Shown: one piece after another, positions 59,945-64,000 of the stretch
Position numbering within the stretch: the first letter of the stretch is position 1
Layout: the number at the start of each line of letters is the position of its first letter
Assembly: GCA_947470895.1 (NCBI GenBank)
Contig: CANIVF010000013.1
Coordinates: 1 to 64,000 of the forward strand
DNA: 64,000 nt
DNA from: Bacteroidota bacterium
GTDB taxonomy: Bacteria > Bacteroidota > Bacteroidia > Cytophagales > Cyclobacteriaceae
Direction: 5' to 3'
Notes under the pieces: generated by a model
Told to the model about the DNA's origin: nothing
The model's database searches: none
What the model saw: the letters and a program-made list of their open reading frames with translations, nothing else
Program-made: the position numbers and the translations under genes

Positions 59945-61021
59945 ATGTTCAAGCCAATCGTTATCATTCAAGCTGTTCTTGTGCTGGCATTCACTGGCGC
60001 CTGCTCAGGAGATTATTATTCTGAAAGTGATTTTCAAAAGGTAAAGAAAATCGACACGCACATGCACCTTCATGCGGAAAGCACAATTCTATCCGAGTTG
60101 GCAAAAGAAAATAACTTCAAGTTACTAGATGTAATGGTGGATGTTCCTTCCTATCCACCTATTGAAGAACAGGAGAAACATGCTTTACATCAAACCCAGG
60201 CTTTTCCAGAACAGGTAAATTACCTCACGGCATTCACTCTCAATAATTGGGACTCTGCAGGCTGGGCCGATAGAACCATTGCTAAGTTAAAAACCTCTTT
60301 CGATCATGGAGCGCTGGGAATAAAACTGTGGAAGAATATTGGCATGGTCTACAAAGACTCTGCTGATAAATTCATCATGGTTGATGATCCAAGACTCGAT
60401 CCTGTTATTCAATACATTATTGATCAAAATAAAACAGTGATGGGTCACCTGGGCGAACCAAAAAACTGTTGGCTGCCCATTGATAAGATGACTGTGAATG
60501 GTGATAAAAGTTATTTTAAAAATAATCCACAGTACCATATGTTCCTGCATCCTGAATATCCATCCTACGAAGATCAGATCAATGCGCGGGATCGTTTCAT
60601 AGCGCGTCATCCTGACATGCGATTTGTTGGAGCACACCTTGGGAGCTTAGAGTATGATGTTGATTCACTGGCAAAGCGTTTGGATAAATTCCCAAATATG
60701 GCGGTGGATATGGCCGCACGCATTTCACATCTGCAGTACCAATCTAAAACCAACAAGGAGAAAGTGCGCAACTTTATCATTAAATATCACGATCGACTCA
60801 TTTATGCTACCGACTCAGGAATATCCTCTACATCTGTTCCGGAAGAATCAAAGAACGAGCTGCATAGCCGTTGGCTTAGTGACTGGAAGTATTTCGTTAC
60901 TGATCAATCAATGACGGTGGCTGAAGTAGATGGCGAATTTTCTGGTCTAAAGCTTCCTAAAAATGTAATTGATGATATCTATCACAATAACGCGGTGAGG
61001 TGGCTTCTTATTAAGAATTGA
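59945..61021 (+). CDS. Exported amidohydrolase-like lipoprotein
   Basis: A 358-residue protein with lipoprotein signal (VLVLAFTGACSGDYY, Cys near residue 20). It then has a TIM-barrel metal-dependent hydrolase: DTHMHLHAES (HxH near 37-39), LGIKLWKNIG, VMGHLGEPKNCWLP, FVGAHLGSLEYDVDSLAKRL and LIYATDSGIS with the final aspartate. It resembles the first amidohydrolase of the locus (45604) in size and motif order but is not a close copy. Both enzymes are exported, so amide or lactone bond cleavage would occur outside the cytoplasm. Last gene of the ASPIC operon, closed by a clear terminator. Confidence 0.82.
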   Translation: MFKPIVIIQAVLVLAFTGACSGDYYSESDFQKVKKIDTHMHLHAESTILSELAKENNFKLLDVMVDVPSYPPIEEQEKHALHQTQAFPEQVNYLTAFTLNNWDSAGWADRTIAKLKTSFDHGALGIKLWKNIGMVYKDSADKFIMVDDPRLDPVIQYIIDQNKTVMGHLGEPKNCWLPIDKMTVNGDKSYFKNNPQYHMFLHPEYPSYEDQINARDRFIARHPDMRFVGAHLGSLEYDVDSLAKRLDKFPNMAVDMAARISHLQYQSKTNKEKVRNFIIKYHDRLIYATDSGISSTSVPEESKNELHSRWLSDWKYFVTDQSMTVAEVDGEFSGLKLPKNVIDDIYHNNAVRWLLIKN

Positions 61022-61048
61022 GGTTAAGGTTAATATAAATTTTGATGA

Positions 61049-61085
61049 ATCTTCCGGTATAGTAGTTACCGGAAGGTTTGTTTTT
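61049..61085 (+). terminator. Rho-independent terminator after the amidohydrolase
   Basis: CTTCCGGTA (61051-61059), loop of seven, TACCGGAAG (61067-61075), then GTTTGTTTTT. Nine-bp perfect stem, extendable by two pairs, about 30 bases after the stop codon. Confidence 0.85.
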
Positions 61086-61194
61086 GCTTGATCCTGAGCA
61101 AGTCAGGGATAATATTAAAATCCCTAATTAATTGCTTTTTTTAACTAACATCCGTCAGTAAAGAATTTTTTTTTACAATTTTTTTGATGTGCCC

Positions 61195-61225
61195 TTGGAA
61201 ACTCTACCAAACAGCTATACGTTTG
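61195..61225 (+). promoter_or_regulatory. Promoter of the methionine operon
   Basis: TTG (61195-61197), 20 bases, TACGTTTG (61218-61225) fits the Bacteroidota promoter form. Transcription would start near 61232, about 26 bases before the riboswitch P1 stem. Confidence 0.55.
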
Positions 61226-61257
61226 TGACATCATAGTCGGTGAGGCCCTTTCGCTTA

Positions 61258-61380
61258 ACCGATTTATAAAGAAGCGTGGAGAGTACAGGCTCTTTGAAGC
61301 GCTAGCAACCAGTCCAGAAGAAGGAAAAAAGGTGCTAAATCCTGCTCCTGGCAAGGTGCCAAGGAGAGCTATAAACCGGT
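61258..61380 (+). ncRNA. SAM-I (S-box) riboswitch
   Basis: S-adenosylmethionine-sensing leader RNA. P1 is formed by 61258-61268 and 61370-61380 (one mismatch). The conserved S-box segments appear in order: TATAAAGAAGCGTGGAG (61265-61281), GCAACC (61305-61310) and GGTGCTAAATCCTGC (61331-61345). A P4-like hairpin CTCC..TGGCA/TGCCA.GGAG covers 61346-61367. It lies 290 bases before metY but only eight bases before the start of a 44-codon leader frame. Confidence 0.88.
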
Positions 61381-61388
61381 AAACTAAC

Positions 61389-61523
61389 ATGAAAACACAA
61401 TATTTCAACTGCCAAAAGCGATCACTCCTTCAAGCTTTGAAAGCGTCTCTCGAGAAACAATTTCATCTTGTTATTAATCTTATTGAACAAAGCAATGCAC
61501 CTGCCATGCGGTGTATGTGTTGA
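61389..61523 (+). CDS. Possible leader peptide ending Met-Arg-Cys-Met-Cys
   Basis: A 44-codon frame from ATG 61389 to TGA 61521-61523. The middle is ordinary (KRSLLQALKASLEKQFHLV), but the end reads APAMRCMC before the stop. Two Met and two Cys codons in the last five sense codons, just before a hairpin and a methionine-biosynthesis gene, are what a ribosome-stalling or attenuation peptide for sulfur amino acids would look like. The start codon is eight bases downstream of riboswitch P1, so SAM binding could also affect its translation. Expression is not shown. Confidence 0.45.
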   Translation: MKTQYFNCQKRSLLQALKASLEKQFHLVINLIEQSNAPAMRCMC

Positions 61524-61527
61524 TTGA

Positions 61528-61561
61528 TGTTGTTCCGTTAAGCGCATCGCTTTCAACAACA
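61528..61561 (+). promoter_or_regulatory. Hairpin directly after the leader frame
   Basis: TGTTGTT (61528-61534) pairs with AACAACA (61555-61561), and inside AAGCG (61540-61544) pairs with CGCTT (61548-61552). It starts four bases after the leader stop codon. No T-run follows, so it is more likely an antiterminator/attenuator or RNA-stability element than a terminator. Confidence 0.5.
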
Positions 61562-61600
61562 CACTAACCTATGGTTTTGCCATGTGACAGGCAGCTTTAA

Positions 61601-62980
<1,380 letters not shown>

Positions 62981-63010
62981 TTAGTCTGATGAAATAGCTA
63001 CAAGCTATGA

Positions 63011-63033
63011 GGGACGAGCCTCGGGCTCATCCT
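63011..63033. promoter_or_regulatory. Hairpin between metY and metX
   Basis: GGGACGAGCC and GGCTCATCCT pair around TCG with one C-A mismatch and one G-T pair. It lies between the metY stop (62980) and metX ATG (63061) with no T-run, so it may adjust expression of the second gene rather than stop transcription. Confidence 0.3.
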
Positions 63034-63060
63034 CACCGCTTGGATATTAAGAAAGATTAC

Positions 63061-64000
63061 ATGTTAAAAATCGATTCCATATTTCACTTTGACAGTGAAT
63101 TCCAGTTGGAGGCCGGGGGTTCGCTCTCAGGCCTCCAACTTAAATACACTACTTTTGGTCAACTCAATAAAGACCGAAGCAATGTAATATGGATTTGTCA
63201 TGCTCTTACGGGTAGTTCCGATTTTACAGATTGGTGGAAAGAACTATTCACCGAAGGCACGCCATTTGATCCGCGTGACTATTTCATTGTTTGCGCTAAT
63301 GCGCTCGGTGGTTGCTACGGTTCAACCGGGCCGCTTTCACTGAACCCGAAAACAGGTCAATCCTTTTATCATGAATTTCCAGCTATTACCAATCGTGATA
63401 TTGTCAATGGATTCGATTTATTGCGTCAGCGTCTAGGCATTAAGAAAATTCATACACTCCTTGGTGGATCATTAGGTGGACAACAAGTTTTGGAATGGGC
63501 CATTCAACAGCCTGAAGCATTTGATCACATCATACCGATTGCTACCAATGCTTTTCATTCTCCTTGGGCCATTGCCATCAATGAAGCACAGCGTATGGCC
63601 ATTGAAGCCGACAGCACCTGGAAAGAAAATGATCCGCGTGCCGGCAGTGAGGGGATAAAGGCAGCACGCGCGATGGGCATGATTTCCTTCCGCACGTATG
63701 AAACCTATAAGCAAACACAAAGCGAAAAGAGTTTAGATACGCTGGATAATTTCAGAGCATCATCGTATCAGCGCTACCAGGGACAAAAACTCTCCAATCG
63801 CTTCAATGCATTTTCGTATTGGGCACTCACCAAGGCGATGGACAGCCACCATGTTGGCCGTGGAAGGGCAAGCGAGGAAGCTGCATTGAAAATCATCACA
63901 GCAAAAACATTAGTGATTGGCATTGATAGTGATTTGTTATTCCCCATTCACGAACAAAAATATTTAGCACAAAAAATTAAAGGAGCACAATTTGCCACCC
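63061..64000 (+). CDS. metX: Homoserine O-acetyltransferase, 3' end beyond the window
   Basis: Acetylates homoserine for methionine synthesis; alpha/beta-hydrolase fold. From ATG 63061 (MLKIDSIFHFDSEFQLEAGG) 313 codons are visible, and about 350 are expected. Visible are LKYTTFGQLN, the oxyanion-side ICHALTGSSDFTDWW, NALGGCYGSTGPLSLNP, the nucleophile elbow GGSLGGQQVLEW (serine; usually GGSMGGMQ) and the catalytic aspartate in IGIDSDLLFP. The catalytic histidine lies past the window end. Directly after metY in the same operon. Confidence 0.93.
   Translation, partial: MLKIDSIFHFDSEFQLEAGGSLSGLQLKYTTFGQLNKDRSNVIWICHALTGSSDFTDWWKELFTEGTPFDPRDYFIVCANALGGCYGSTGPLSLNPKTGQSFYHEFPAITNRDIVNGFDLLRQRLGIKKIHTLLGGSLGGQQVLEWAIQQPEAFDHIIPIATNAFHSPWAIAINEAQRMAIEADSTWKENDPRAGSEGIKAARAMGMISFRTYETYKQTQSEKSLDTLDNFRASSYQRYQGQKLSNRFNAFSYWALTKAMDSHHVGRGRASEEAALKIITAKTLVIGIDSDLLFPIHEQKYLAQKIKGAQFAT

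Follow-up and report, generated by a model that had tools for sequence, protein, structure and literature searches.

A SAM-I riboswitch followed by a cysteine-tailed leader ORF upstream of metY in Bacteroidota

It is usual to regard a riboswitch and an amino-acid leader peptide as alternatives to each other. The Salmonella mgtA leader, which is riboswitch-like and carries the proline-rich mgtL, joins an ion-sensing leader RNA to a tRNA-sensing peptide; in this it is like the leader described here, from which it differs in signal, phylum and layout. Runs of Cys codons in short open reading frames (sORFs) that precede sulfur genes, as here, occur in mycobacteria, for which the source study is reportedly Canestrari 2020. 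In the portions of the reports covered here, these polycysteine sORFs are Cys-responsive attenuators (PMC9094748, PMC9031893 and PMC13236596) and are leaderless, that is, the transcript starts at the sORF, whereas the ORF considered here is preceded by a SAM-I riboswitch aptamer of about 120 nt, belongs to another phylum and is enriched in Met as well as in Cys. A Cys upstream ORF (uORF) with tandem Cys codons, uORFC-8-2, precedes cysS in Rhodobacterales and has an intrinsic terminator, and the sections covered of the paper that describes it mention no riboswitch (PMC8632094); here the gene is metY, a SAM-I riboswitch is present and the stretch from the leader stop to metY contains no hairpin followed by a U run. 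In Mycobacterium tuberculosis, the first target of a riboswitch can be a small uORF, as we propose here: this is the case for the ppe2 B12 switch (PMC11260477) and the pe20 Mbox (PMC12810186), for the latter of which Rho is implicated, and the portions of these papers covered do not describe the uORFs as amino-acid sensors. For Flavobacterium, the covered part of one study gives clues for leader-peptide attenuation before amino-acid operons (PMC9723704).

Here we describe a locus in which an aptamer that matches the SAM-I (S-box) riboswitch family RF00162 at 64 bits precedes metY, and in which the riboswitch appears to act on a sensor leader ORF and not on the gene itself or on a terminator. 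A literature search of open-licence papers found no description of a Cys leader coupled to a SAM riboswitch, although other papers could contain one; the components are known and their combination in series appears to be new. In much of one phylum, riboswitch and leader peptide appear to be connected in series, with tail codons that match the pathway. If this is true, Bacteroidota, which lack Shine–Dalgarno signals, would clearly exemplify the gating of initiation on a sensor ORF by a riboswitch. The arrangement would also explain why metY genes so often lie around 200–400 nt from their riboswitch in this phylum. The arrangement is directly testable in culturable strains.

Anatomy of the locus

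The window is a 64,000-nt stretch of DNA from a Bacteroidota bacterium (Cyclobacteriaceae; contig CANIVF010000013.1, positions 1 to 64,000, forward strand). The locus lies near its end (Table 1), and we have high confidence in its anatomy. The covariance model of RF00162 matches 61261–61377 with 64.0 bits (gathering score 44.4, E 1.4e-12), and RF00162 is the only Rfam family that exceeds its gathering score in the window; this score places the RNA in the family, and SAM binding is predicted. In the predicted fold, three further pairs (61258–61260 with 61378–61380) extend P1, which then runs from 61258–61380 to 61268–61370, and the leader ATG follows 8 nt past the extended helix. A sequence-only reading of this DNA had placed the riboswitch 290 bases from metY and had described a 44-codon frame opening eight bases past P1, ending in Met-Arg-Cys-Met-Cys and followed four bases later by a hairpin. 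Every coordinate that was checked holds: metY starts 292 nt beyond the Rfam match, and TGTTGTT (61528–61534), 4 bases after the leader stop, pairs with AACAACA (61555–61561). The putative promoter fits the sigma-A consensus that is given for Flavobacterium in the covered part of PMC9723704.

Table 1 Features of the metY locus in the window
Feature	Coordinates	Strand	Remarks
TACGTTTG	61218..61225	+	Putative promoter, inferred from sequence; fits TAnnTTTG; 35 nt before the Rfam match
SAM-I riboswitch aptamer	61258..61380	+	Rfam match 61261-61377, P1 lengthened by 3 pairs
Leader ORF MKTQYFNCQKRSLLQALKASLEKQFHLVINLIEQSNAPAMRCMC	61389..61523	+	44 codons; ATG 61389, TGA 61521
Terminal Met-Arg-Cys-Met-Cys codons	61506..61520	+	The window's version of the Cys-rich (Cys and Met) tail
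Hairpin of the sequence-only reading	61528..61561	+	TGTTGTT/AACAACA, inner AAGCG/CGCTT
CAACAACA	61554..61561	+	3' arm of the 61528-61561 hairpin; complementary to Cys codons (UGUUGY)
Element B, conserved structured RNA	61554..61612	+	Three short helices, 8-nt loop holding GUGAC
metY, O-acetylhomoserine aminocarboxypropyltransferase	61670..62980	+	TIGR01326, 670.3 bits, cut-off 495.1; regulated gene
metX, homoserine O-acetyltransferase	63007..63999	+	Truncated by the window end; TIGR01392

The truncated metX frame matches TIGR01392 with E 3.9e-97 and 325.5 bits, which is under the curated cut-off of 500. Its first ATG is probably too early, and a later in-frame ATG (MLKIDSIFHF) looks likelier. 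Upstream of the locus, a strong hairpin with a T-rich tail at 61044–61082, just past the end of the preceding gene (61021), is likely to be a transcription terminator.

Cys-tailed leader ORFs in relatives

On its own the window makes a weak case, having only two terminal Cys codons. Relatives have an ATG within about 10 nt of the metY riboswitch that opens an ORF ending in a Cys cluster, for example CMCCCC, CCCCCCC, RMCCCCCCC or CTCTCCCC. We searched RF00162 in the window's own genome together with relatives (58 genomes in all, 52 of them positive) and in a phylum sample (127 of 148 genomes positive), and assembled 201 riboswitch loci, comprising 110 from the window's genome and relatives, 90 among the phylum-sample matches listed, and the window; one genome of the window's genus (G202) was left out. 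A blind rule required that the first ATG lie no more than 25 nt past the riboswitch and open an ORF of 15–70 codons with at least 3 Cys among its last 10 residues, which excludes the window itself. The rule was satisfied at 49 of the 201 loci, in 42 genomes. When the first 400 nt of the same loci were dinucleotide-shuffled 100 times, it was satisfied at a mean of 0.13 loci and at most at 1; a chance origin of the Cys-tailed leaders is thereby ruled out. At other positions downstream of the same riboswitches 12 of 298 ORFs qualified, a count that is not a clean null, as internal ATGs can re-find leader frames.

Within the window's genus, at least 3 Cys occur in the last 12 residues at 31 of the 33 metY or osmC–metY loci examined, the exceptions being the window, with 2, and L060, with none; the window is therefore a reduced member of a strong family. 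Clustered relevant codons that are conserved in relatives, one of the marks of a ribosome-mediated attenuator, are thus found in this family and are weak in the window (2 terminal Cys). Cys runs were also sought genome-wide, using an exact pattern of four Cys codons followed by TRR that also admits TGG and that shorter runs escape. This gave 34 matches in 9 genomes, 22 of them with a true stop; among the 21 of these that were inspected by eye, the only frames next to a gene that began with ATG and had the length of a leader were L282, L294 and L309, all already known riboswitch–osmC–metY loci, and the remaining true-stop match (G009:C24) falls at leader L062.

The arrangement extends well beyond the genus. 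With the MetY of the window as query, we took the best 80 named metY loci of a longer list and found RF00162 upstream in 77; it was not found upstream of L249 (in 357 nt of upstream sequence), L279 (862 nt) and L276. When ORF starts within 30 nt are considered, the final 12 residues contain 3 or more Cys at 60 of these 77 loci, 2 at 4 loci and fewer at 13, the last group including L270 and L275, in which Cys-rich frames are present and a start codon is absent from the 30 nt scanned. Carriers include Chryseolinea (Cytophagales), Chryseosolibacter, Parachryseolinea, Hymenobacter, Marivirga and Adhaeribacter, as well as Mucilaginibacter (Sphingobacteriales) and a Sediminibacterium metagenome-assembled genome (Chitinophagales). 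The two-layer control put forward in the sequence-only reading, SAM sensing by RNA plus a Met/Cys leader, depended on the frame and its terminal codons being kept in relatives with the same riboswitch. They are kept (31/33 genus loci, 60/77 named loci), and this comparison supports the proposal.

In Algoriphagus, Aquiflexum and Cognataquiflexum, all 12 of 12 loci have the leader ATG at exactly +9 and a tail with 0–2 Cys, and therefore argue against a strict need for a Cys tail. Across these genomes the comparison suggests that the join between riboswitch and ORF is the more constant part and the Cys tail the less constant one. Among the Algoriphagus loci, L240, L242, L245, L246, L250, L255, L259, L262, L268 and L274 retain the ORF at +9 and have apparently lost the second sensor. 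Two Belliella loci have 2 tail Cys.

Coding signals in the leaders

The leader sets used below comprise 105 loci, of which 93 are distinct, with 94 distinct peptides in 73 clusters; the named loci in them were chosen by a Cys tail within 600 nt of metY and not by proximity to a riboswitch. In 45 of the 49 blind-rule carriers the leader ATG lies 6–14 nt past the Rfam match, and in the other 4 it lies 1 or 3 nt past it. Start contexts were compared in 85 distinct leaders, left from the 105 loci once repeats and 11 loci with fewer than 8 nt of sequence before the ATG had been removed. Position −3 is A in 69% of them, and each of the four positions that follow the ATG is A in 82–87%. In Bacteroidetes an A at −3 promotes initiation, according to the covered part of PMC6847099, and this context supports the view that the leaders are translated.

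Cys accounts for 253 of 588 residues in the tails versus 36 of 1425 upstream, a contrast that is partly built in because the set was selected for at least 3 tail Cys; the tail Cys codons are TGT (175) and TGC (78). Met, for which the set was not selected, accounts for 83 of 876 tail residues versus 40 of 2161 upstream (one representative for each of the 73 clusters), and occurs among the last 12 residues in 73 of 94 peptides and among the preceding 12 in 33 of 94. This enrichment therefore supports the description of the leader as Met/Cys-ending in the sequence-only reading, with an adjustment of weight: Cys is the dominant and defining residue. In a codon-position test on the tails of close pairs, third positions accounted for 41 of the 101 differences (p 0.08, not significant), and 48 of the 69 tail codon differences in that test were non-synonymous.

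Genes that carry the leader and the P1 strand

Genes downstream of the 201 riboswitches were assigned to classes by tblastn, each class being represented by a single reference, and leaders were called Cys-tailed if at least 3 of the last 12 residues were Cys. Such leaders occur at 35 of 80 metY, 7 of 7 osmC–metY, 3 of 4 YceI, 4 of 5 ATP-grasp (RimK-like; L051 is counted here, though its next gene encodes a TonB receptor) and 2 of 4 TonB-receptor (SusC/RagA family) loci. None was found at the 58 metH, 16 metX, 1 metF-like or 7 other loci of the same sample, nor at its 19 metB-like loci, a class that could be gamma-synthase or lyase, because none of the 25 NCBIfam matches shown for its reference (L003) exceeds the cut-off. 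Many metY loci of the phylum sample are entirely without a leader.

This distribution bears on whether the product controlled by the riboswitch is a small protein with a function of its own, a Cys-rich peptide that would be made at low SAM and would bind metal or sulfane sulfur. Cys clusters can bind metals, and the ORF starts are well placed for translation, both of which would suit such a peptide. The tail, however, tracks the function of the next gene, the number and spacing of Cys vary widely, the peptides have little sequence in common (94 fall into 73 clusters), and the peptide of the window has no match in Pfam or NCBIfam; we consider a functional peptide quite improbable.

The 3' strand of P1 also separates the loci. 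It reads UAUAAA in 46 of 52 carriers (window included) versus 16 of 149 others, in which it is mostly GAUAAG and variants. P1 may therefore, by inference from this strand, double as an AU-rich initiation region.

Several riboswitch loci of the same sample deserve mention in their own right. One of the 'other' loci (L045, genome G036) has a SAM riboswitch and a short ORF ending in CCRY before a PAPS reductase gene (cysH), and sulfate assimilation may therefore share the circuit. Three SAM riboswitches lie within about 12 kb in G008 contig C6 (L006, L043 and L078) and in G009 contig C23 (L007, L038 and L064), preceding metB-like, YceI and ATP-grasp genes; those before YceI and ATP-grasp have Cys-tailed leaders, and the metB-like L006 has, by eye, a terminator-like hairpin. 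The SAM riboswitches of the metH class in the same genomes (L074 and others) often show GGCUCUUUCUGG ... AGAAAGA-GUG, which by eye resembles a hairpin that masks the start codon and would be a third output type besides terminators and leader ORFs.

Proposed mechanism

We propose, with moderate confidence, that the locus carries a composite leader: the SAM-I riboswitch probably gates translation of the sensor ORF, and the fate of the ribosome on the terminal Cys (and Met) codons probably controls metY. With SAM bound, P1, about 6–14 nt from the AUG, would exclude the 30S subunit, leaving the leader untranslated and metY low. When SAM is low, P1 would open, and its UAUAAA 3' strand, together with the A-rich stretch before the AUG, would form the initiation region. 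Under scarce Cys-tRNA, ribosomes would come to a halt within the Cys run at the end of the leader; by occupying these codons they would release an RCARCA segment where one is present, and metY expression would most likely be permitted. When Cys is ample, ribosomes would finish the leader and release.

Classical amino-acid leaders turn genes on when the amino acid is scarce, and the proposed direction, in which low Cys would switch metY on, is chosen because they behave in this way. The same parts could work in the opposite direction, low Cys keeping metY silent and thereby giving cysteine synthase priority for sulfide; a cysK-type gene that would compete for sulfide is present in the genome (371.6 bits, cut-off 344.15). 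The behaviour of classical leaders speaks against this arrangement, as does the Cys leader of cysS, uORFC-8-2, which is proposed in the covered sections of PMC8632094 to switch on at scarcity. We think the opposite direction unlikely.

A more direct route would be control of metY by transcription termination at the riboswitch, the ORF being a spacer. Some metB-like SAM loci of related genomes (L006 and L014) do show a hairpin with a T run by eye; in the window, however, no terminator-like hairpin with a U tract was found between the leader stop and metY, and the enrichment of Cys tails (49/201 loci versus a shuffle mean of 0.13) also speaks against this route. We regard direct termination as highly improbable. 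The sole match of a terminator scan in the leader region of the window, at 61495–61516, lies inside the ORF and has a poor tail.

For the output step of the composite leader, our first guess is Rho acting on the exposed transcript, because no intrinsic terminator was found in the window's leader, because the folds reveal no masking of the start codon and because of the analogous Mbox-controlled uORF in the covered portion of PMC12810186; the alternatives are a hairpin or access to the start codon. Folding 28 loci with a ribosome masked changed the value for element B, a structured RNA described below, from 0.61 to 0.65 and left gene-start access at 0.62 (0.62 before), and therefore no switch that reaches metY is visible in these folds. 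Masking of the metY start codon by leader hairpins was considered as a candidate and rejected, as it did not change under the ribosome mask in 29 loci, or again in the 28 that remain without L100, which lacks GTGAC.

Pairing downstream of the leader

The hairpin at 61528–61561, to which the sequence-only reading drew attention, is present, and by eye similar arms occur in near relatives and, as a rule, not in other clades; it is, however, not the best-conserved RNA feature of the leader, which is the covarying element B just 3' of it. Its 3' arm, CAACAACA, is similar to RCARCA, a segment able to pair with Cys codons. RCARCA occurs within 90 nt past the leader stop at 38 of 93 distinct loci, compared with 11.9 expected from shuffles. 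Duplexes of the Cys tail with the 90 nt that follow have energies that improve only slightly on those of shuffles (mean z −0.69). In the folding model, pairing between tail and RCARCA falls from 0.66 to 0.07 (mean of 28 loci) when the last Cys codon is masked by a ribosome.

The enrichment of RCARCA, along with the excess of TGT over TGC, would be expected if the UG-rich tract mattered as RNA that pairs with RCARCA and the reading frame were incidental. Yet 55 of the 93 distinct carriers have no RCARCA within 90 nt, the duplex energies exceed shuffles only slightly, Met is enriched along with Cys, start contexts are A-rich, and the tracts terminate reading frames whose starts lie next to P1; together these make a role as RNA alone very improbable, and we retain the composite leader as the preferred reading.

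Element B

Element B consists of three short helices (61565–61569 with 61605–61609, 61572–61576 with 61599–61603, and 61578–61581 with 61590–61593) together with two loops, one internal and small, the other of 8 nt and holding GUGAC at 61584–61588. RNAalifold recovered only the top helix from the raw alignment, because lengths differ in its middle; the fuller structure was set by hand. The first count used 20 of the 31 alignment rows; the 11 omitted include the two worst fits (L069 and L210), and L058, L092, L215 and L100 had been omitted earlier. A covariance model built from these 20 sequences found 34 copies in 47 sources. Paired cells make up 95.8% in the 20 sequences (12.5–40.4% in slid versions) and 94.8% in the 34 model-fitted ones (14.5–40.9% slid). 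Among the 20 sequences, 25 cells changed on both sides (reached in 0 of 500 shuffles), and neither the number of pairs with two-sided changes (5; 76/500) nor that of pair types (14; 374/500) exceeded shuffles. Among the 34, every measure exceeds shuffles: two-sided changes affect 7 of 12 pairs (0/500) and 45 cells (0/500), and there are 17 pair types, the measure with the smallest excess (15/500). The counts on both sets are flattered, as these sequences served to draw the structure, to which the alignment of the 34 was then fitted. By these comparisons element B is a structured, covarying RNA. Its loop reads GUGAC in 33 of the 34 sequences and GUGGC in L100, a constancy that is partly built in because the sequences were first picked by GTGAC.

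A whole-genome search with the model found one copy in each of 24 of the 58 genomes, all of one genus and including that of the window, and all 24 copies sit just downstream of metY or osmC–metY riboswitches. Element B is also present at named loci of Chryseosolibacter histidini, Parachryseolinea and Chryseolinea; among 62 sources, mostly carriers from other clades, it was found in the window alone and in none of the other 61. Element B appears to be a new RNA: in an Rfam scan of 61000–61800 with 4227 models, up to E 5, no match overlaps 61554–61605, and a sub-threshold match to CRISPR-DR8 lies at 61606–61639 (20.8 bits, cut-off 39).

Element B may be the output device of the window's clade. 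We hold it to be about an even call that a two-input series gate operates across several Bacteroidota orders, in which the SAM riboswitch would determine whether the sensor peptide is translated and its polyCys/Met tail would sense the charging of Cys and Met tRNAs, in which sulfide-fixing and sulfur-uptake genes would be on only when SAM and Cys are both short, and in which element B would deliver the answer in the window's clade. Two candidate partners of its loop were considered by eye: a pseudoknot between GUGAC and a downstream GUUAC was rejected, as sequences with GCUAC break the pairing, and for a possible kissing interaction between the GUGAC loop and the AUGUCA start of metY, both sides hardly vary.
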